Below are positions 198-31,762 of a DNA stretch of 32,071 bases, piece by piece. The stretch comes from a bacterium (GTDB lineage Bacteria > Sysuimicrobiota > Sysuimicrobiia > Sysuimicrobiales > Segetimicrobiaceae), in the NCBI GenBank assembly GCA_035691305.1, contig DASSJF010000081.1, positions 1 through 32,071 on the forward strand. Direction: 5' to 3'. Position 1 is the first letter of the stretch. Every line of letters begins with the position of its first letter. The position numbers and the translations under genes were made by a program. The notes under the pieces were generated by a model. It saw only the letters and a list, made by a program, of their open reading frames with translations. It did no database searches and was not told the origin of the DNA.

Positions 198-1478
198 GTG
201 GACCGGACCGCCGCCGTGCTGGCGCGCATCGATTCGCTTCGCGAGATCCTGGTCGAGGATCTCGCGGCGGTCGTCCGCATTCCGACTGTGGTCGGCCACG
301 AAGGACCCGGCCAGGCGTGGATCGCCGAACGGTATCGTGCCCTCCGGCTCGAGACGCACGCCGTCCCGGTCGATTTCGAGGCTGTGCGGCGCCACCGCGC
401 CTACTGCGGCTGGAGGGCGGGGGCGGCGGCGTACGAGAACCGGCCCAACGTCGTCGGCGTGCTGGAGGGCGATTCGGGCGCGCGCAGTCTCATCTTGAAC
501 GGCCACATGGACGTCGTCTCCGCCGAGCCGGAGTCCGCGTGGACCTACGGCCCCTGGACTCCGGCGGTCGTCGACGGCCGGATGTACGGCCGCGGCGCGA
601 ACGACATGAAGGCGGGCCTCGTCAGCAACTACGTCGCTCTGCGGGCGATCTTGGAATCAGGTCTGCGGCCGCGCGGCACGGTGCAGTTGCACTCCACGAT
701 CGAGGAAGAGGCGGGCGGCGGCGGCGGGGCGCTCGCCCTGCTCCTCGCCGGCTACACGGCGGACGGCTTCATCGCGACGGAACCCTGCCGGCACGGCATC
801 CGGATCGGCAACGGCGGGATCATGTACTTCCGCGTGCGCGTGGAAGGCAAAACGGCGCACGCCGGCAACGCCCATCTCGGCGTCAACGCGGCGCTCAAGG
901 CGGCACCGATCCTCCTCGCCCTCGGCCGGCTCGATGAAGCGCGCGCGAAGCGGCATGAGGGGTCACCGTTTGCCGAAGGCTCCCGCGGCCGCGCGTGCCA
1001 CCTGAGCGTCGGGTCCGTCCGTTCCGGCGACTGGCCGTCCACCGTCGCCGGATGGGCGGAGATCGAAGCGCGCGTCGGCTACCTGCCGGGCGAGACGCGC
1101 GAGGGAGTGCGGGCCGAGGTTGAGACCGCGTGCCGGCAGGCCGTTGAGCACGATCCGTGGATGCGCGACCACCCGCCGGCGATCGAATGGTTCGGGTGGG
1201 ACGCCGAGCCGTGGCAGGAAGACCCGCGCCAGCCGTTCATCACGACACTGCAGGAAGCCGGCACCGAGGTTCTCGGCCGCCCGATCGAGACCTTCAGCCG
1301 GACGTCAGGCGTCGACTCACGCTTCCCCCACTACTTCGGTTTCCCGGGCGTGTGTTGGGGCCACCGCGGCGACAACAACCACGCCGTCGACGAGTGGACC
1401 GACCTCGAGAGCGTCGTACAGTCGACGAAAGTGATCGCGCTGATGATCATGAAATGGTGCGGAGTCGTTCCGGCCTAG
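198..1478 (+). CDS. M20 family deacylase (ArgE/DapE-like)
   Basis: A 426-residue cytosolic zinc hydrolase of the ArgE/DapE/ACY1 group, which removes acyl groups from N-acyl amino acids. The two-metal site is complete. NGHMDVV supplies H103 and D105, GRGANDMKAG the bridging D136, the EEE run the general base and a ligand (E170/E171), TEPC gives E195, and GDNNHAVDEW near the end gives H395. GKTAHAG (H221) marks the lid/dimerisation domain. Length fits the family. The GTG at 198 puts a short N-terminus before the conserved RIPT segment; no strong ribosome site is visible, so the start is moderately sure. It stands alone, divergent from the TDT gene and followed by tRNA-Lys on the other strand. 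Exact substrate cannot be told; generic 'ArgE/DapE family deacylase' is safest. Confidence 0.85.
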   Translation: MDRTAAVLARIDSLREILVEDLAAVVRIPTVVGHEGPGQAWIAERYRALRLETHAVPVDFEAVRRHRAYCGWRAGAAAYENRPNVVGVLEGDSGARSLILNGHMDVVSAEPESAWTYGPWTPAVVDGRMYGRGANDMKAGLVSNYVALRAILESGLRPRGTVQLHSTIEEEAGGGGGALALLLAGYTADGFIATEPCRHGIRIGNGGIMYFRVRVEGKTAHAGNAHLGVNAALKAAPILLALGRLDEARAKRHEGSPFAEGSRGRACHLSVGSVRSGDWPSTVAGWAEIEARVGYLPGETREGVRAEVETACRQAVEHDPWMRDHPPAIEWFGWDAEPWQEDPRQPFITTLQEAGTEVLGRPIETFSRTSGVDSRFPHYFGFPGVCWGHRGDNNHAVDEWTDLESVVQSTKVIALMIMKWCGVVPA

Positions 1479-1501
1479 CGCTGCGCGCGGTCGAGGGGAA
1501 T

Positions 1502-1577
1502 TGGTGGGCCGCGTAGGACTCGAACCTACAACCTTGGGATTAAGAGTCCCCTGCACTGCCAGTTGTGCTAGCGGCCC
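1502..1577 (-). tRNA. tRNA-Lys (anticodon CUU)
   Basis: Read on the minus strand, the acceptor GGGCCGC pairs with GCGGCCC, followed by discriminator A and an encoded CCA. The T-arm has GTAGG-TTCGAGT-CCTAC. The anticodon loop CTCTTAA gives anticodon CUU (plus-strand 1542-1544). The anticodon stem has four Watson-Crick pairs and a G.A at its base. It lies back to back with tRNA-Leu. Confidence 0.95.
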
Positions 1578-1584
1578 CCGCGAC

Positions 1585-1613
1585 ATTCTAGCGTGTTTGA
1601 CGGCGGCGGACAA
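1585..1613 (-). promoter_or_regulatory. Promoter of tRNA-Lys
   Basis: On the minus strand TTGTCC (1613-1608) and TAGAAT (1590-1585) are 17 bp apart and end 8 bp before the tRNA 5' end, a good housekeeping-type promoter. Confidence 0.6.
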
Positions 1614-1665
1614 GCGGAGCGCGCCGGGTTTCGATTACAATGGTCGCAGGACGCGAAGGCCGAAC

Positions 1666-1755
1666 GCGGGCGTGGCGGAACCTGGCAGACGCACCAGGCT
1701 TAGGACCTGGTGGGCCGCAAGGCTCGTGGGGGTTCAAATCCCTCCGCCCGCACCA
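1666..1755 (+). tRNA. tRNA-Leu (anticodon UAG)
   Basis: A class II tRNA with a long variable arm. The acceptor GCGGGCG pairs with CGCCCGC, followed by A and an encoded CCA. The anticodon stem CCAGG/CCTGG encloses CTTAGGA, giving anticodon UAG at 1701-1703. A TACAAT hexamer at 1636-1641 is a plausible -10, about 25 bp before the 5' end. Confidence 0.95.
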
Positions 1756-1810
1756 CCCAGACACGGCGCGCGCAGCTCCAGGGCCGGCGGCGATTCGCCG
1801 CGGGGGTCAC

Positions 1811-2704
1811 CTACCGGTACTCCAGCGCGTCGCGGTCCCAACGTCCCAGATTCGCGGCGGCCTCGTACGTGCTCTGTAGAAAGTCGAGCACCATCGTACG
1901 CGGATCGGGCGCCGACCGCACTTCATCGTACGGCAGAAGAAAATTGTTGAACTCTGCGCTGTAGTACGCCGGCGCCGGGATGCGGGCGTCTCGGAAGCCC
2001 TCGGGCTCAGGCGCGGCGTACGAGTAAAACGCGGGCGCGGTGAGGCTCCCGCTGCCCGGCCACCAACCGGCGCTGCTGACCTCGTGCGAATAGCCCTCGC
2101 GCGTGACCTTGTCCGCGGTTGCGGGCAACGTCGTATTGCGCCGGCCGCTGAACCGCGTGGCGGCGAGATCGAAGCCTCCCCAGAACACGTGCACGGGACT
2201 CGCCTTGCCGATGAACCGCCCTCGGAACCGCTTGAGGATTTCGTCGGCGCCGAGCATGATCCGCCAGCACCGGTGCGCGTATTCAGGGTCGTAGGACGCG
2301 TGCACGGTGTCCTTTTCGAACGGGATCGGATTGGGGTACTCCTGCGGCTTCGTCGAGATCCGCACGCCGATCTCAAGCCGCCGCAGCGCCGCCATGACCT
2401 CCCGGTAAAAATCCGCGACCGGCACCGGACGCAGCGCGATCGTCTCGGTCCGCCCTCCGCTCGTCTGGAACACGAGCCGGTGATCGAAGAAGTCGAATGT
2501 CGCGTCGAACGTCCCGCCCGTATAGGGAATCGGCGTGGTGGTGAGGCCGCGGGAGGTCAGGTACAGGGCGACCTCCCACCAGTGGTTCACGCGCGGTGTA
2601 AGCTCGAGGCGCACCTTCCCGACGATTTGGGTCCACATATGGAGCGTGTCGTACGTGCCCTGCCACGCGGCGAGCGGAAGCGCCGGCCACGCCTCGTTTG
2701 TCAT
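1811..2704 (-). CDS. DUF5996 family protein
   Basis: A 297-residue protein that I recognise as DUF5996, a widespread family of unknown function. Typical features are the opening WPALPLAAWQGTYDTLHMWTQ, the NHWWEVALYLTSRGLTT block, SPVHVFWGGFDLA in the middle and the aromatic-rich PAFYSYAAPEPEGF near the end. There is no signal peptide or membrane helix, so it is probably cytosolic. The ATG at 2704 is preferred over the GTG at 2707 because a GGGAGGG ribosome site sits about five bases upstream of it. It follows the SdhD-SdhC gene by roughly 40 bases on the same strand and may be the last gene of the fumarase/succinate dehydrogenase transcript. Nothing in the sequence shows a link to that pathway. 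Confidence 0.8.
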   Translation of the reverse strand: MTNEAWPALPLAAWQGTYDTLHMWTQIVGKVRLELTPRVNHWWEVALYLTSRGLTTTPIPYTGGTFDATFDFFDHRLVFQTSGGRTETIALRPVPVADFYREVMAALRRLEIGVRISTKPQEYPNPIPFEKDTVHASYDPEYAHRCWRIMLGADEILKRFRGRFIGKASPVHVFWGGFDLAATRFSGRRNTTLPATADKVTREGYSHEVSSAGWWPGSGSLTAPAFYSYAAPEPEGFRDARIPAPAYYSAEFNNFLLPYDEVRSAPDPRTMVLDFLQSTYEAAANLGRWDRDALEYR

Positions 2705-23180: not shown

Positions 23181-24593
23181 TCAGTCGAGCGGCGGTCGCC
23201 GGCCGGCCCACGGTTGGATCGCTTCGAACCCCGCCGCGGCGCGCAGGACGACGGCGTCGGCGTGCCAGCGGCCGATGATCTGCAGTCCCACCGGCAGGCC
23301 CTCCCGTGTCCAACCGCACGGAACGGACACCGCCGGATGCCCAGTCAAGTTGAACGGGAAGGTAAACGTCAGGCGTTCCAGCAGCGTGGGTGCGGGCCGG
23401 CCCTCGATTACCGCCGCGCTGTCGGGCTCGACCGGCCACGCCGCGACCGGCATCGCCGGCGTGAGCAGCAGGTCGTAGCCTTCGAAGAAACGGGACACCG
23501 CCCGGTAGAACGGCGCCCGGGTGAGGAGCGCCCTCCCGTAGTCGAGCGCGCTCATGCGGCCCGCATCGACGATCATGCGCATGAGCGAAGGATCGATCCA
23601 GTCGGGATGCTCGCGCGCGCGGTCGTGCTGGCGTGCCGCCACGCCGACGTGCCAGATGAACCGGTGCGGTTCGCGCATATCCGGCCAGCCCAGCGCCGGC
23701 GCCTCGACCGCACAGCCCAACTCGCCAAACCGCCGGGCGGCCGCTTCGGTGACCGTCCGTACCTCGGGGTCGACGGGCAAGCAGCCGAGATCCGGACTCC
23801 ATGCGACGCGCAGGCCGCGCAGGTCGCCGTCGCAGGCGGCCACGTAGTCCTCCGGCGGCGCATCGATCGACAGCGGATCGCGCGGGTCGGGACCCGCCAA
23901 CGCCGACATCAGGAGGGCGGCATCGCGTATCGTTCGTGCGATAGGCCCGTTGTGCGACCGCGCCGACCAGAAATCGGGGCTCGGATGGTACGGCACGCGG
24001 CCGAACGACGGCTTGAACCCCACCACGCCGCACAGCGACGCCGGGCAGCGGATGGAGCCGGCGCCGTCCGATCCGTGTGCGAGCAGTCCCATGCCGGCGG
24101 CGACGGCAGCTGCCGCCCCGCCCGATGATCCACCGGACGTCCGGTCCGGCCGCCACGGATTCCGGCAGGGCGGTCCGATGAGATTGTCGCTCATGTCCTT
24201 GTGGCCGAAGTGCGGGGTGTTCGTTTTGCCGAGCAGGATGCCGCCCGTCGCCCGAAGCCGTCCCGCCGCGGCGCCGTCTTCCACCGGCACGTGGCGTTCG
24301 AACCACTTGGAGCCGTAGGTGGTTCGCACGCCGGCGGTATCCTCGAGGTCCTTGACCGAGTACGGAATGCCGTCGAGCGGCCCCCTCCGCTGTCCCAGGC
24401 GCGCGCGGGTCTCGGCCTCGCGCGCCTGGGCGCGGGCCAAATCGGCCGTGACGGTGATGTAGGCGTTAAGGACGGGGTTCAGCCGCTCGATGCGCGCGAG
24501 CACCGCATCGGTGATCTCCACCGGCGAGACGTCGCCGGCGCGGATCAAGCGATCCAGCTCGAGCGCGGGGGTGAAGCACAGGTCCGGGGTCAT
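23181..24593 (-). CDS. Amidase (amidase signature family)
   Basis: A 470-residue serine hydrolase that cleaves amide bonds, related to AmiC/GatA. The Ser-cisSer-Lys triad is present: K81 in GIPYSVKDLEDTAG, S156 in TSGGSSGGAAAAVAAGMG, and nucleophile S180 in SDGAGSIRCPAS. The C-terminal PFNLTGHPAVSVPCGWT and GLPVGLQIIGR blocks are typical of stand-alone amidases. It is unlikely to be GatA because there is no GatB or GatC nearby. The ATG at 24593 is the natural start. It follows the SPOR-domain gene by 32 bases on the same strand, so co-transcription is possible. Substrate unknown. Confidence 0.9.
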   Translation of the reverse strand: MTPDLCFTPALELDRLIRAGDVSPVEITDAVLARIERLNPVLNAYITVTADLARAQAREAETRARLGQRRGPLDGIPYSVKDLEDTAGVRTTYGSKWFERHVPVEDGAAAGRLRATGGILLGKTNTPHFGHKDMSDNLIGPPCRNPWRPDRTSGGSSGGAAAAVAAGMGLLAHGSDGAGSIRCPASLCGVVGFKPSFGRVPYHPSPDFWSARSHNGPIARTIRDAALLMSALAGPDPRDPLSIDAPPEDYVAACDGDLRGLRVAWSPDLGCLPVDPEVRTVTEAAARRFGELGCAVEAPALGWPDMREPHRFIWHVGVAARQHDRAREHPDWIDPSLMRMIVDAGRMSALDYGRALLTRAPFYRAVSRFFEGYDLLLTPAMPVAAWPVEPDSAAVIEGRPAPTLLERLTFTFPFNLTGHPAVSVPCGWTREGLPVGLQIIGRWHADAVVLRAAAGFEAIQPWAGRRPPLD

Positions 24594-24625: not shown

Positions 24626-26269
24626 TTAGGGCGTGGAGGCCGGATCGGTTACCACGATCGCTTCGGGTGCCCCGGCTCTGACGACGCCGGTAATCGCATT
24701 TACCGACACCTGCGGGTATGGCCCCAGGCGCAAGATGTAGACCGGACTCTCGCGGATCCAGGCATCGTATCCCGCGGCCGCGATACGGCTCGACAACGTT
24801 TCCGCGTCCGCCTGTGACGTAGCGATGCCGAAAATCAGCTGAACCGATTCACCCGTCGCCGGTTCGATAGAGCTGCGTATCCCTCGACGGGCCAGCGTGG
24901 CCATAAGATCCTCCGCCGCCTTCCGCGGCAGCGGCTCGGAGACCACCCGATATCCCGGCTGCATGGTGATCTGTGACTGGACGAATCCCGCCGTCGCCAG
25001 TTGCTTCGCGACGGCCGTCGCGCGGTCGCGATCAAAAACCGGGCCGATCCGAACCATGTAGACCGCGCCGGAAGACGGCGAGGTGGCCTGTCCGGCAGGA
25101 GCGGGCGCGCCGGGCGCGCCCGGCGCCGCGGCGGCGGGTTCTCCGGAGGAAGTCTGGGGTCGCGCGGGCCCCGGTGGCGTTGCCGGCGGCGAAGACGCCG
25201 CGGTAGGTGAAGCGGGTTGGGATGCGACGGGGGTAGCTGGATCCGGAACTCTCCGCGGGGCCGCCGCGACAGATGAATTGTCCGCCGGCTTCGCCGGAGG
25301 CGTCGGCGTCTGAAGGCCCGCCTTGACCGTGGTTGCCGGTTGTGGGAGCGTGCCGTTGGACGCCGTCGGCTGCTGTGCCGGCGTCGCCTTATCGTCCGTT
25401 ACGGCGAGGTGGGGGGGCTGTCCATTTCCCCGCACCCGACGGTCTGCGGGCCGCAACGGCGGACCCTGCGGTGCGGGCAGACGGTGTGACGCCGCCGCCC
25501 GCGCCGGCTTCCACGTCGCCAGCCCGCTCTCAAGCAGCGGGAGATCGTGAAGCGCCGCGCGCGCCGCCGGCGATCCAGCGCTCCGAGGAGCGCCGCCCGC
25601 GGGCCGTGGTGCCGCCCTCTGCACCGTCGGTTTGGCGCGGTCGCCGGGCCGACGATCCCAGGTGCCGGCGTTAAGGACGAGCACGCCGAGAACGGTTCCG
25701 ACCAGAAACGCTAGCAGCGGAACGCCGGCGTGCCCTACCTTGAAGCGTGGGAATGTTCGCGAGGGGATTGCCGCCGCCGTTGCATCCGGAGGACCATCAT
25801 GTAAACCCGACACGTCCTCCACGATGTGCGCGACCGTCGGCGGAAGATAGACGGGTCCAATCTGTCCGCGGCATATTCTGCCGGCACACTCGTAGTGAGC
25901 AAGTTCCACCTTGAACGCACCGGCGATCGCGGCCGCTGTGCCCCAGACGACGACGCTGCGCCTGGCCGCGCTCAATTCAATGACGTCGAGACCGGCGTCG
26001 CGCGCGAATACCCGGATTCTATCGAGATCGGCCGGATTCGCCCCGTCGCCGTCGCCCGGTTCGTACCGCCAATGCCGAGACGGGTTCCCAAGATCACCCG
26101 CGTCCGCGGCGCTCGTTGACCCGCGGCCCGCTCGGATTCCGGGGCGCAGGTGGATGGCGATCATGAGCGCTTCGTTAGGATCTACGGGACCCAACCATTT
26201 GCCACCGGAGGGGATCGGGCGTTCGCTGTTGCGGAGAGGCACCCAGGCTGTGGTTTGAGGCAGTTGCAT
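24626..26269 (-). CDS. Sedolisin pro-domain / transmembrane / double SPOR fusion protein
   Basis: 547 residues in four parts. Residues 9-158 match the pro-kumamolisin activation domain: VPLRNSERP, LGPVDPNEALMIAIHLRP, PADLDRIRVFARDAGLDVIE, VVVWGTAAAIAGAFKVELAH and GPVYLPPTVAHIVEDVSGL. This fold normally chaperones and inhibits S53 (sedolisin) peptidases. No peptidase domain with the Glu-Asp-Ser centre follows. Instead there is a membrane helix (181-200), a Pro/Ala/Ser-rich spacer (about 201-400), and two SPOR-type repeats (YMVRIGPVFDRDRATAVAKQ and VQLIFGIATSQADAETLSSR) of the fold that binds peptidoglycan or related glycans. With no signal peptide, the likely topology is pro-domain inside and SPOR domains outside. 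The ATG at 26269 fits the domain start. The amidase gene follows. Confidence 0.85.
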   Translation of the reverse strand: MQLPQTTAWVPLRNSERPIPSGGKWLGPVDPNEALMIAIHLRPGIRAGRGSTSAADAGDLGNPSRHWRYEPGDGDGANPADLDRIRVFARDAGLDVIELSAARRSVVVWGTAAAIAGAFKVELAHYECAGRICRGQIGPVYLPPTVAHIVEDVSGLHDGPPDATAAAIPSRTFPRFKVGHAGVPLLAFLVGTVLGVLVLNAGTWDRRPGDRAKPTVQRAAPRPAGGAPRSAGSPAARAALHDLPLLESGLATWKPARAAASHRLPAPQGPPLRPADRRVRGNGQPPHLAVTDDKATPAQQPTASNGTLPQPATTVKAGLQTPTPPAKPADNSSVAAAPRRVPDPATPVASQPASPTAASSPPATPPGPARPQTSSGEPAAAAPGAPGAPAPAGQATSPSSGAVYMVRIGPVFDRDRATAVAKQLATAGFVQSQITMQPGYRVVSEPLPRKAAEDLMATLARRGIRSSIEPATGESVQLIFGIATSQADAETLSSRIAAAGYDAWIRESPVYILRLGPYPQVSVNAITGVVRAGAPEAIVVTDPASTP

Positions 26270-26448: not shown

Positions 26449-26940
26449 GTGAGCAACGTTGAGATGATTTCGTTCGTCGCGAATGCCGCAGCGATCACGG
26501 TGGCCATCGTAGCGATTTGGCTTGCCATCTCGTCCGTACGGGAGTCGGGCGCCAACCACGAAAAGACCCTGACCACCCTGGCCGCGGTCAGCGAACGGGC
26601 CGCGGTGACCGAGCGAACCGTCGGGGAACATTTCGAGAAATTGATGGGGACAATGCTCAGCATCGCGAACGCGATGGCCGTCGCTCCTGAGGTTCGGAGG
26701 GCCGAAATCGAACGGCTCGGCGAGGAACAGCGCGCCAGGATTCAATCGGACATGATCAAACTGCTCGGTGAGGCGATCAAGTGGGGCGACACGGCCAAGG
26801 TCGATGCGTTCGTGCGAGCGGTAGAGGCTTTCACATCGGGGCGTCCACACGACGCGGCGGCGTTACGAAACCATCGAACGTTGCAGCCGTCGTCCGTACC
26901 GTCAACGGAATCCTCGCCCCCGTTTTCCACCGCACCTTGA
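26449..26940 (+). CDS. Small single-pass membrane protein with coiled coil
   Basis: A 163-residue protein. An N-terminal helix (about residues 8-28, FVANAAAITVAIVAIWLAIS) should span the membrane. A long helical, coiled-coil-like stretch follows (SGANHEKTLTTLAAVSERAA..TVGEHFEKL), then a charged region, a helical segment ending VDAFVRAVEAFT and a Ser/Pro tail. Similar small proteins are common in accessory regions, but I cannot name a family. The GTG at 26449 starts just before the membrane helix, with a G-rich stretch upstream. It is divergent from the SPOR fusion gene, and the next gene lies 49 bases downstream. Bases are less GC-rich than in the left part of the window. Confidence 0.6.
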   Translation: MSNVEMISFVANAAAITVAIVAIWLAISSVRESGANHEKTLTTLAAVSERAAVTERTVGEHFEKLMGTMLSIANAMAVAPEVRRAEIERLGEEQRARIQSDMIKLLGEAIKWGDTAKVDAFVRAVEAFTSGRPHDAAALRNHRTLQPSSVPSTESSPPFSTAP

Positions 26941-26989: not shown

Positions 26990-27712
26990 ATGCCTAGGTC
27001 CATGAACCGCCCGCACGTTGTGCTGACGACGACGCAGGGCAACGAAGTGTTTAGGATGATCGAGAAGAACGGACTTGACCCGCACGCCTTTCGGTGGGAC
27101 GAAACGCGCCCCTTCTCACACCGCCCGCATCCGGCCGACCTGTTGCTCTACTGGCCGTCGGGTAAACCCGAAACGCCGGAAGTGTTTTTCGCCTTCGGCC
27201 GCGACCGTGTCGCGCGCTCCCCCGGCAGCGAACGGTTGTATGAAGAACGATCCGCGGGCGATTGGCGCGAACAGACCCTGCCGTACGTGGCCCTGTGGCT
27301 GGACGATATCAAGCGCGAGGCGGGCCCGAGCCTATGGGAGAATTTTCCGCTTGAAAGTCTAACTCCGGTCCCGGAGGGCCGCTTCGCGCCGCCGGAACAG
27401 GCAGTGCTTCTTACCCGGCTGAACGAGCTGGAGCAGCGGCTGACCGCGCTCAATTCGTTGACGCCGGAACAAAGGAAGCAGTTGAAAGAAGAAGTCCGAC
27501 GCATCGCAAACGCGGCATCGCGTTTGGATAAGGCGGAGTGGCTGCGGTTTGCGCTCGGGTGCATCCTCACCGTCGTCGTTACGGCCGGCATCCCGCAGGG
27601 CGTCGGGGCATCGTTGATGCGTTTTGCGCTGTCGGCGTTTCACGGGATGGTGGCCCCGAAAACACAGTACATTCCGGGCGGCCAAGCGTGGCAGCGGGCA
27701 TCCCTGCGGTGA
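26990..27712 (+). CDS. Hypothetical protein with C-terminal membrane segment
   Basis: A 240-residue protein in two parts. The N-terminal part has NEVFRMIEKNGLDPHAFRWD, an aromatic strand LLLYWPSGK, and RSPGSERL followed by WREQTLPYVALWLDDIKREA and SLWENF. The C-terminal part has a helical hairpin-like segment (LTPEQRKQLKEEVRRIANAA), the SRLDKAEW motif and a hydrophobic region (about residues 187-215) that probably enters the membrane. From memory this resembles a scattered family of unassigned bacterial proteins with 'SPG..W..Q...WL..IKRE...LW' and '(R/K)xDW + hydrophobic tail' patterns; I cannot cite a function. The ATG at 26990 or 27002 could start it. It sits between two other small plus-strand genes. 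Confidence 0.6.
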   Translation: MPRSMNRPHVVLTTTQGNEVFRMIEKNGLDPHAFRWDETRPFSHRPHPADLLLYWPSGKPETPEVFFAFGRDRVARSPGSERLYEERSAGDWREQTLPYVALWLDDIKREAGPSLWENFPLESLTPVPEGRFAPPEQAVLLTRLNELEQRLTALNSLTPEQRKQLKEEVRRIANAASRLDKAEWLRFALGCILTVVVTAGIPQGVGASLMRFALSAFHGMVAPKTQYIPGGQAWQRASLR

Positions 27713-28170: not shown

Positions 28171-29019
28171 TCAGGGACAGCTCGCCCGCGCCTTTTCTAT
28201 TTGACCGGTGAGCGCGACGAGCCCACGGTTGTTCGGAAACGCCCGGAGCCCCTCCGCGAGCGTCGCTCGCGCCGCGTCCAAACGGCACGCCGCCACCTGC
28301 CCGCGCACCAACCACTCGTACTCGACCGGTTGTTCAGGGACGGTCTCCTGCCGCGCGGCGTACGCGGCTCTCCGCGCCTGCATCAGCGACTCGACGGCCT
28401 GGACTGCGGCGGGATAATCGCGTCCCCCCATCGCGATCTCGTAGATCAGCGTGTACGCAAAGATGAGACCAACGGTCCACTGCCCCGCCGCCGTGATCGC
28501 GCGAGCCTGCTCCAGGGCTTTCCCACTGTCGTTCAACCGCCAAGTCGCCAGCGCGGCTCCCAGGACCGCAAAGTTTCCCGGCTTCCCCTGCCACGCGGCC
28601 AGGGCTTCGCGAGACGACTGGGACGTCAAAGCATACCGGCCCTGCGCGACCACCCTTCCCGACGCCTGGTCCCTCAGCGTTACCGTGTACTCTTCTGCGG
28701 GCAGGAGGCTTCGCCGTCCGTTGGTCAGGGCGAAATGCGCGACCGAACCGCCTACGGCGACGATCAGCGGGCTGCCGGTAAACGTGGCGCTGTTACGCTG
28801 GAGGGTGTACCGTCCGGCAGGTATCCCCCGAAAGACGTAGGTCAGCCACGGGACCCCCTGCGGGAACGCGGCGTCGCATCGCACCGGCGCTCCCGCCACC
28901 CAGTCTTCGCAGGTCTCAATGGCGACCTGGCCCTGGACTCGCGCTGGTCTGCCTCCAACGAGGAACACCGCGAGGCACAGGAGGGCGGCGGTCAACGGCC
29001 GACGCGATCGGCTTCTCAT
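28171..29019 (-). CDS. Secreted protein with helical-repeat C-terminal region
   Basis: A 282-residue exported protein. The signal peptide is MRSRSRRPLTAALLCLAVFL... with cleavage expected near VQG/QVAIE (about residue 30). The middle is beta-rich: LTYVFRGIPAGRYTLQRNSA, VAHFALTNGRR and EEYTVTLRDQASGRVVAQG. The C-terminal half is helical and TPR-like: ALEQARAITAAGQWTVGLIF, YPAAVQAVESLMQARRAAYA and ARATLAEGLRAFPNNRGLV. It has a few cysteines (ETCEDW, VRCDAAF) that could form disulfides. The ATG at 29019 is preferred over a start at 29049 because it places the basic residues correctly before the hydrophobic core. Function unknown. Confidence 0.65.
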   Translation of the reverse strand: MRSRSRRPLTAALLCLAVFLVGGRPARVQGQVAIETCEDWVAGAPVRCDAAFPQGVPWLTYVFRGIPAGRYTLQRNSATFTGSPLIVAVGGSVAHFALTNGRRSLLPAEEYTVTLRDQASGRVVAQGRYALTSQSSREALAAWQGKPGNFAVLGAALATWRLNDSGKALEQARAITAAGQWTVGLIFAYTLIYEIAMGGRDYPAAVQAVESLMQARRAAYAARQETVPEQPVEYEWLVRGQVAACRLDAARATLAEGLRAFPNNRGLVALTGQIEKARASCP

Positions 29020-29170
29020 GGTCTTCGCCTCGATCACGACGCTCGGCAACGAGCGGCCTGTGAGAGATAGGTGACAGTTTGTACCGGACCCGTGGCTAAC
29101 ACTCCTTCCCTGAAGGGGGGAGGAACGAAGATGCGCGGAAACGTGGGGCGGCCCTAAGAGGGACCGCTTC

Positions 29171-31762
29171 TTATTTCGGAGCAGTCACACCGATCGCGTA
29201 AACCGTGCGAAATGCTGTGTGGCTCGTGTCGAAGTCGATCCCAAACCACACACCCCGCGAATCGTACCAAAGTGTCTGTATTGCCGGCGCGCGAGTCACG
29301 CTGACCCGAGACGGCTTGCCCATCGCCGATTCGACCGCGGACAGCGGGCTTCCGACCTGCAGTCCTTCACGCGTGAGGTATCGTCGATCGCCGATCGTCC
29401 AGACTGCCTCCACAACGCCCGACCGGTCCGTACGAATTCCGATACCGGTGTTCTTTGGAGACTCGAACCAACGATATAAGACTGTACCGTCCCGAAGCTT
29501 CTCTCCACCCGTCGCCGGTCCCAGGAGCGCGATCGCGTCGCCGATGGAGGTCCGAAGGCGGATCGGGCCCAATGCGGCGCCCGGTGCCACCGGCCACAGT
29601 TTCATTTCGACTACCTGCGGCCTGCCCAGTTTTAGTACCTCATAGAGGTTGCTGTAGTCATCAGACCAAGCATGGAATCCCCGCGGCACCTGGGCCGGCG
29701 CGCTGTCGGCGGTCACAAAACTCCGCGCCCTAAACCACCGGTCATCGGCCGTAACCAGCACCCATGTGGAATACGCGAGATACGCGGCGTCCTGGCCGTC
29801 GTCATAGAACACCGTCGCGCGACGCCTGAACCGCTCCGCATTGGCCGCGATGACCGGGACCAGGTTAAGGTATCGGTTTGTCACATGTATGGCGAGGATG
29901 CCGTCCGGTCTTAGATGGCGCAGGTACAAGGCGAAGGCCTCGCGGGTCAGAAGGTGCGTCGGGATGGCGTCGCCCGAAAATGCGTCGACGGCCAGCAGAT
30001 CGAAGCCCTGGTCTGGCTCCCGCTCCAACACAAGCCGGGCGTCACCGAGGGAAATTTGCTTATCGGCCGGTGAGGCAGAATAGAAGGTGAATGCATTCCG
30101 CGCGATCTGCGCCACCAACGGATTGATTTCATAAATTCGATAAACGTCGCCGGGCCGGCTGTAGCTCATCAGCACACCGGCGCCCAGGCCGGCGATCCCG
30201 ACCTTGACGGGTCGATCGGCCCCCAATGCGCGCAGCGCCCGCCCGATGCCGGAATTGGGTCCGTAGTAGGTGGTGGCGCGGCGACCCGCCGTGTCCACGA
30301 GCAACTGTCCGCCGTGGCGGATCGTGCCGTGATACAGGTCGCGTTCGCCGCCACCGTCCACGATGCGAAGCGCGCCGTAAAAGTTGCGGACTCGGAGGTG
30401 CGCATCCGCGGCAAGCGTCGTCTCCTGGCTGATCAGCGAGGCGGCAAACACCAGGATGCTCGCCGCGAACACGAAATGCGCAACCGCGGGGCGCACCGAG
30501 GCAAAACGGACGTTCCACAGCACACCCGCGACGGCCAGCGCGCACGCGACGAGCGCGATCGGCAGCTCGGCGTACGAGCGAAACAGATGCGGCGCGACGA
30601 CCGCAACAAAGACCCCACCGATGGCGCCGCCGAGCGCAACCATGAAGTAGTACAGTGTCAATTGAGCCGTCGCCGGCCTGCGGCTCGCCAGTTCGCCGTG
30701 GCACGCCAAGCAACACACAAACAATCCGGCGAGAAACACGGGCACTTGGACTTGGAGCGAAATGTTGCCCATGTTGCCGTAAATCAGGTACGCCATGGCG
30801 CCCAACGCGATCGGCAGCACCGGCAACACCACGGCGCGCCGGTAGATCCTGTCGCTCTCGAACGCGAGTACAAACGTCAGAAGGTACGTCGACAGCGGAA
30901 GCACCCACAACAGCGGGATGGGGGCAACGTTCTGCGTGAGGTGCTCCGTCACGGCAAGGAGCAATGTCGACGGCACGGCGGCAAGGTATGCCCATCGCGC
31001 CAGTTCCCGAACGCGGACCGTGGAGCGCGTATCGATTCCTGCCGCGACGACCCGTTCGGGGTCGCGCGGCGGCCGGCCGATCCACGCGGCGACCCCACAG
31101 AAGATGACGAAGACGGCATAGGCGCCGCTCCACACGTAGGCCTGGACGTGCGATGTGAGATTCGGTTCGACGAACACGGGGAAACTCAGCAGCGCCAGCA
31201 GCGACCCAGCGTTCGACAACGCGAACAGACGGTACGGATTGCCGAGGGCTTTGCGCCTCCCGTACCACGCTTGGAGCATCGGGCTGGTCGACGACAGCAT
31301 GAAATACGGTAGTCCAACGGTCAAAGCCAGCAGCACGAGAATCCGGATCGTCGGGTCCCCGGCGCCGTCGAGCTTCAGCGCCGGCGACGGCAAGATCGGC
31401 AGTAGGACACAGCTCACGACCAACAGAGCGGTGTGGAGGACGGCCCCTGCCCTCGGCGGTAGCAGCCGGATCGAACCATGCGCATATGCGTAGCCGCCAA
31501 GCAGAACGGCCTGGAAAAAGAGCAGCGCCGTACTCCAGACAGAAGCCGATCCGCCGAACCAGGGCAAGATGATCTTGGCAATTAGCGGCTGGACCTGGAA
31601 CAGCAGAAACGCGCTCAAAAAAACTGTGGCCGCATAGAGCGCCGTTAAGAGGCTGTCGATGGTAACCGCGGTCCGACGGCCGAGAGCCGCTGAACGCCCC
31701 GCCGCGTTCAATGCGCCTCGCTCGAGCCGGGGGCGTTGCGTATCCCGAACGGTTGAGTCCAC
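29171..31762 (-). CDS. Fused MFS transporter-like / spermidine synthase-like protein with duplicated C-terminal module
   Basis: 863 residues. Residues about 36-445 form a multi-helix membrane domain like that of 'fused MFS/spermidine synthase' proteins (FQVQPLIAKIILPWFGGSASVW, LPYFMLSSTSPMLQAWY, LLWVLPLSTYLLTFVLAFE). Residues about 455-690 are a spermidine-synthase-type Rossmann domain with GIAGLGAG (523-530), YEINPLV and VDAFSGDAIPTHLL (D593). Activity as an aminopropyltransferase is unproven for such fusions. Residues 737-802 and 803-863 are two copies of a roughly 60-residue module (IGDAIALLGPA...LYRWFE; VGSPLSAVESAMGKP...LWYDSRGVWFGIDF) resembling BamE/SmpA-like repeats, an unusual tail. 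Start GTG at 31762, with AGGTG nearby. It appears to be a single-gene unit. Confidence 0.82.
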   Translation of the reverse strand: MDSTVRDTQRPRLERGALNAAGRSAALGRRTAVTIDSLLTALYAATVFLSAFLLFQVQPLIAKIILPWFGGSASVWSTALLFFQAVLLGGYAYAHGSIRLLPPRAGAVLHTALLVVSCVLLPILPSPALKLDGAGDPTIRILVLLALTVGLPYFMLSSTSPMLQAWYGRRKALGNPYRLFALSNAGSLLALLSFPVFVEPNLTSHVQAYVWSGAYAVFVIFCGVAAWIGRPPRDPERVVAAGIDTRSTVRVRELARWAYLAAVPSTLLLAVTEHLTQNVAPIPLLWVLPLSTYLLTFVLAFESDRIYRRAVVLPVLPIALGAMAYLIYGNMGNISLQVQVPVFLAGLFVCCLACHGELASRRPATAQLTLYYFMVALGGAIGGVFVAVVAPHLFRSYAELPIALVACALAVAGVLWNVRFASVRPAVAHFVFAASILVFAASLISQETTLAADAHLRVRNFYGALRIVDGGGERDLYHGTIRHGGQLLVDTAGRRATTYYGPNSGIGRALRALGADRPVKVGIAGLGAGVLMSYSRPGDVYRIYEINPLVAQIARNAFTFYSASPADKQISLGDARLVLEREPDQGFDLLAVDAFSGDAIPTHLLTREAFALYLRHLRPDGILAIHVTNRYLNLVPVIAANAERFRRRATVFYDDGQDAAYLAYSTWVLVTADDRWFRARSFVTADSAPAQVPRGFHAWSDDYSNLYEVLKLGRPQVVEMKLWPVAPGAALGPIRLRTSIGDAIALLGPATGGEKLRDGTVLYRWFESPKNTGIGIRTDRSGVVEAVWTIGDRRYLTREGLQVGSPLSAVESAMGKPSRVSVTRAPAIQTLWYDSRGVWFGIDFDTSHTAFRTVYAIGVTAPK

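Follow-up and report, generated by a model that had tools for sequence, protein, structure and literature searches.

A gene in the window analysed here, a 32,071-nucleotide stretch of a draft genome from the bacterial family Segetimicrobiaceae, encodes the pro-domain of a kumamolisin-type S53 peptidase followed by a transmembrane (TM) helix, an Ala/Pro-rich spacer and two SPOR repeats. The domain fusion appears to be real, though so far a single case; the architecture is new, and we infer its mechanism. With a probability of roughly one half, we read the product as a bitopic SPOR protein of the FtsN/DedD kind in which an exapted S53 pro-domain makes up the cytoplasmic part and acts as a binding module. 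Its most likely role is to serve as an adaptor at the division site, not to inhibit a protease.

Domain layout of the fusion protein

The gene runs from 26269 to 24626 on the minus strand, from ATG to stop, and encodes 547 amino acids in a reading frame that is continuous over all 547 codons. A stop codon lies in frame on the 5' side of the ATG, and because the ATG aligns with the starts of S53 precursors, the protein very likely does begin with the pro-domain. The idea that a second gene begins downstream, just ahead of the TM helix, was rejected, since no in-frame ATG, GTG or TTG occurs between residue 153 and the helix. The GC level is similar along the ORF.

Pfam detected SPOR (E 4.4e-12, 46.6 bits against a cut-off of 21) and Pro-kuma_activ in the protein, and no other family. 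The pro-domain (residues 9-158; 25796..26245, minus strand, as for all features below) was delimited by PF09286, by relatives and by the match of an AlphaFold (AF2) model to 1T1E, 3EDY and 3EE6 in Foldseek and VIA-align. Within it, the alignment and a pLDDT below 50 mark a diverged stretch (residues 45-74; 26048..26137) that replaces the first pro-domain helix segment. The TM helix (residues 181-203; 25661..25729) is the highest hydropathy peak of the protein and its one hydrophobic helix (peak of 2.46 at 181-199; AF2 helix at 183-201). The spacer that follows (residues 204-401; 25067..25660) has no Pfam match, and the 193 residues from 206 to 398 are 23% Ala and 21% Pro, or 44% together. SPOR repeat 1 (residues 402-467; 24869..25066) matches PF05036 by itself with E 3.1e-7, and repeat 2 (residues 471-541; 24647..24859) reaches 18.2 bits by itself, below the cut-off of 21, the tandem being conserved. 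A preceding sequence-only reading had proposed this order of parts, with a spacer of about 200 residues and SPOR domains at 400-547; the order is borne out and PF05036 matches where it was placed, the second repeat being weak alone. The reading had also claimed that a signal peptide is missing, in agreement with the hydropathy profile of the 547-residue protein, which has no N-terminal hydrophobic segment. A full-length AF2 model built from two sequences gave a pLDDT below 50 for the SPOR part and was therefore not used there.

Identity and fold of the pro-domain

Against the Pro-kuma_activ model the protein scored 30.3 bits (E 5.7e-7; cut-off 23.5), with only residues 78-157 aligned. The first half of the domain has diverged beyond the reach of the Pfam model, yet it aligns directly to intact S53 precursors. 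Identity was 36% to the S53 precursor of Scopulibacillus daqui (P0002) over window-protein residues 10-160 (E 3e-22), and 44-46% over residues 3-160 to P0005, the complete S53 precursor of a same-family genome (G011), which itself matches pro-kumamolisin 1T1E nearly full-length (E 6e-160). Viral contigs searched for relatives of the G011 precursor yielded none. When the window protein was compared with the PDB using phmmer, 1T1E was the sole match (E 1.7e-5).

The AlphaFold model of the pro-domain, built from a shallow two-sequence alignment, had a mean pLDDT of 72; most of residues 11-44 and 78-158 were of fair to high confidence, and residues 45-74 were predicted to be disordered. From the pro-kumamolisin literature and the alignment, we take these residues to occupy the place of the first helix segment in S53 precursors. 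Foldseek against the PDB returned, below 1e-3, only 1T1E (E 2.5e-9) and two TPP1 precursor entries. In VIA-align, 145 residues aligned with 1T1E at Z 17.6 (rmsd 5.0); TPP1 reached Z 12.4 and the best unrelated chain 5.5. Because both comparisons match S53 precursors, the modelling supports a pro-domain fold with one diverged stretch. The claim of an N-terminal S53 pro-domain is thus upheld by the Pfam match, by 36-46% identity over about 155 residues and by the match to 1T1E, the HMMER search and the predicted fold pointing the same way. That recognisable pro-domain blocks fill residues 1-150 holds for most of the fold and fails at about 45-74, where a pro-domain sequence can no longer be recognised.

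The window protein keeps 36 of the 50 positions that are conserved in four or more of five S53 pro-domains. Asp157 and Arg159 are replaced and the whole linker is lost: most S53 precursors examined continue GLD-x-RPQA-x-x-HFR or variants where the window protein reads GLHDGPPDATAAAIPSRTF, and the active-site linker RPQAKPHFR, which most of these precursors have as such or as a variant, is absent. In a phylogenetic tree the window pro-domain groups with the G011 and Scopulibacillus precursors with weak support (86/76), that of G011 being nearest by path. Its end branch is long, at 1.81 changes per column where the median is 0.56, suggesting that it changed rapidly after parting from an enzyme. 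The protein therefore resembles pro-kumamolisin and other S53 precursors (1T1E, P0005, P0002) in its N-terminal pro-domain (27-46% identical), its predicted fold and the lack of an evident signal peptide; unlike them, it has neither the catalytic domain nor the linker, its first helix segment is diverged, and a TM helix and SPOR repeats follow.

Absence of a peptidase

We built an HMM of the S53 catalytic domain from S53 loci, and it found the domain in nearly all pro-domain loci fetched. Over the six frames of the window it found nothing (best E 0.67), indicating that the catalytic domain is missing rather than hidden by a frameshift. A hidden catalytic remnant is thereby ruled out for the window, and the absence claimed from the sequence alone is confirmed. 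Of the features that define S53 membership, the pro-domain is present, and the catalytic domain with its GGTS serine motif was not found in the window or the genome. No S53 or S8 peptidase was detected in the source genome (3.58 Mb, 87 contigs, 3.15% contamination) by family or by S53 query, a missed gene being possible at its 96% completeness. A second pro-domain was not found there either, and the fusion protein carries the sole copy.

Two sister species of the same genus (L021 in G002, L022 in G001) encode secreted S53 peptidases that begin with a signal-like segment and lack a recognisable pro-domain, and neither an orphan pro-domain nor a relative of the window protein was found in these two genomes. 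Of the three genomes of the genus, none was thus seen to hold both enzyme and orphan pro-domain, and this argues against their working as partners in trans. Of what had been envisaged for related genomes, S53 peptidases without a pro-domain do exist, in these two species, and the same architecture was not found.

Distribution of the architecture

The pro-domain/TM/SPOR architecture was not found elsewhere; the source genome stands alone among 43 genomes of the phylum. Pro-domain matches occurred in 11 of the 389 genomes sampled, and the remaining matched loci have an S53 catalytic domain in the same frame in all cases but two, a 228-aa ORF in G204 and a locus in G392 that was read in part. Among the matches listed for the phylum of G280, the pro-domain part of the window protein (P0001) was covered and the SPOR part was covered in none. 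Among the papers searched, none names both a SPOR domain and kumamolisin. Seen in a single genome among all those sampled, the fusion is not a recurring "system".

Elsewhere, some pro-domains do stand in a chain that lacks a peptidase. In G017, a genome belonging to the same order, an ORF of about 130 aa encodes only a pro-domain and lies beside a subtilase (L047, G017:C506). The ORF (859-1257, minus strand, from an internal ATG) scores 27.1 bits against Pro-kuma_activ and directly follows the subtilase (1257-2648, minus strand; PF00082 E 1.4e-21, 463 aa, no signal peptide evident), whose own N-terminus resembles this ORF by eye; an integrase-like ORF lies nearby. The two are a candidate stand-alone pro-domain/subtilase pair.

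The SPOR module and its relatives

The tandem SPOR of the window protein is 61-65% identical to two-repeat modules of the same family in G003 (P0003) and G008 (P0006). These proteins and a copy in G010 share with it the two repeats, a Pro/Ala spacer and an N-terminal hydrophobic helix; P0003 and P0006 carry other modules instead of the pro-domain. P0003 (L004) has a signal-like helix and a domain (residues 41-175) that shares 44% identity with residues 725-859 encoded by the window gene at 29171-31762; a TM helix is present in P0006 and in the G010 copy, P0006 also having a weak TPR-like stretch. G003 additionally encodes a short TM-SPOR form. An extra module before the TM helix occurs only in the window fusion, and the family relatives with an extra module, P0003 and P0006, carry it on the wall side. 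Because the tandem SPOR recurs in the family with other N-terminal parts or with no extra module, we regard module shuffling on it as normal there, and the fusion of the window is in keeping with such shuffling.

Two side observations concern these relatives. The G010 gene (L012, G010:C277) is matched partly in one frame and partly in another, a TAA lying within the match, and may be frameshifted in the assembly. The window gene at 29171-31762 (minus strand) encodes a spermidine-synthase-like membrane protein whose C-terminal domain (725-859) is common to the N-terminal part of P0003, and the shared domain, at 44% identity, would represent a module exchanged between two genes that lie close to each other in the window.

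Like FtsN, DedD, DamX and other bitopic SPOR proteins, the window protein has an N-terminal part, one TM helix, a disordered spacer and a C-terminal SPOR region, presumably in the same orientation. Unlike them, it has a tandem SPOR and, in the N-terminal position, a folded protease pro-domain of about 160 residues. Its C-terminal half matches the NCBIfam FtsN model (TIGR02223) weakly, with 28.7 bits against a cut-off of 107.65, and by this model the protein does not count as an FtsN. The source genome also encodes conventional N-tail/TM/spacer/SPOR proteins and an FtsA, which has an SHS2 domain by family and was judged from its sequence to be FtsA rather than PilM.

Genomic neighbourhood

An amidase gene (23181..24593, minus strand; PF01425) begins 32 bases past the stop of the fusion gene. 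The amidase is present in 12 of 12 family genomes, and the fusion is absent from all eight amidase loci read, so an operon logic was rejected and the amidase is probably an unrelated neighbour. Upstream of the amidase, a relative of the fusion gene is absent in seven of the eight loci, and G003 (C142) has a short TM-SPOR gene about 2 kb upstream. On the other side, the gene at 28171-29049 is nearly private to the source genome within the family, suggesting that the fusion gene adjoins a variable stretch. Two uncharacterised ORFs with hydrophobic segments lie on the plus strand at 26449-26940 (no Pfam match) and 26990-27712 (no Pfam or NCBIfam match).

Possible roles of the pro-domain

The main rival to the adaptor is a history in which a fusion or deletion left an S53 pro-domain before a TM-SPOR gene, the SPOR part working and the pro-domain being tolerated as a slowly decaying passenger. 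We think this unlikely, though worth serious attention: a singleton among 43 phylum genomes, with a long branch, diverged residues 45-74 and a plausible donor in the nearest S53 precursor of its own bacterial family, is what it would leave behind. It accounts less readily for 547 open codons with a start matching S53 precursors, for the 36 conserved positions and for a fold predicted well except in one loop. That the gene is an assembly or binning artefact joining two unrelated genes appears very improbable. The assembly has 87 contigs and some contamination, the architecture is seen in it alone, and a low-complexity spacer separates the two halves; however, each half has its best relatives in the same bacterial family, GC and frame run evenly through the ORF, and our searches found no second copy of either half in the source genome.

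The sequence-only reading had also offered a trans-acting inhibitor. A protein held at the membrane or wall that inhibits or helps to fold an S53 or S8 peptidase is disfavoured by our results, and we consider it improbable. Precedents can be named: stand-alone propeptide-like subtilase inhibitors exist (SUB1-ProM, PMC6993865), G017 has its pro-domain-only ORF adjoining a subtilase, and the sister species have S53 peptidases without pro-domains. Like SUB1-ProM and POIA1, the window protein has a peptidase pro-domain without its peptidase; unlike these, which are of the S8 subtilase type, it is of the S53 type and membrane-anchored, in a genome where no such enzyme was detected. The sister species with the enzymes have no orphan pro-domain, and their enzymes start with a signal-like segment, whereas the window pro-domain should be cytoplasmic. 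The linker is absent, with Asp157 and Arg159 replaced, although a different tail could still bind. Inhibition of subtilases depends largely on the propeptide's C-terminal tail, which enters the active site and is not essential in all of them (PMC10580911); this rule may extend to S53 by analogy.

Among the functions offered earlier, a scaffold or exapted binding module is the best reading of the sequence. SPOR proteins usually have the SPOR domain joined to an N-terminal TM helix via disordered stretches, and SPOR domains attach to denuded glycan strands, which are concentrated at the septum (PMC6895207); the cytoplasmic tail of FtsN binds FtsA (PMC9525312). By analogy with these properties and given the layout of the window protein, an adaptor is favoured. 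The FtsN/DedD-like layout places the pro-domain most likely in the cytoplasm, where it should lie if the SPOR repeats are on the wall side; the charge flanking the TM helix leaves the topology undecided (K+R minus D+E is +3 in the 15-residue flanks on both sides). The tandem SPOR would bind peptidoglycan, most likely denuded septal glycan, and the spacer and single helix would reach across the wall and the membrane. With its catalytic domain gone, the pro-domain fold would sit in the cytoplasm as a protein-binding module and couple a partner, perhaps a divisome protein such as FtsA, to the septal wall.

The adaptor is supported by the SPOR and pro-domain matches, the one TM helix without an N-terminal hydrophobic segment, the retained positions, a model that strongly matches only S53 precursors and the missing enzyme partner. 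Also in its favour are the weak FtsN match of the C-terminal half, the conventional SPOR proteins and the FtsA of the same genome, and the family's use of the tandem SPOR with other N-terminal parts. Counting against it are the occurrence in one genome with no orthologue, a long branch and lost helix segment that fit decay as well as repurposing, and the wall-side rather than cytoplasmic position of extra modules in family relatives. More speculatively, the pro-domain might be the cytoplasmic receiver of a wall-to-cytoplasm coupling, in which engagement of septal wall by SPOR positions or gates its binding to a divisome or signalling partner; this extension we regard as doubtful.

If the adaptor is functional, a sedolisin pro-domain can persist without its enzyme as an intracellular binding module, and the cytoplasmic end of FtsN-like wall-binding proteins would be an exchangeable socket. 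The protein would then offer a way to test how a protease-chaperone fold alters after release from its catalytic domain.
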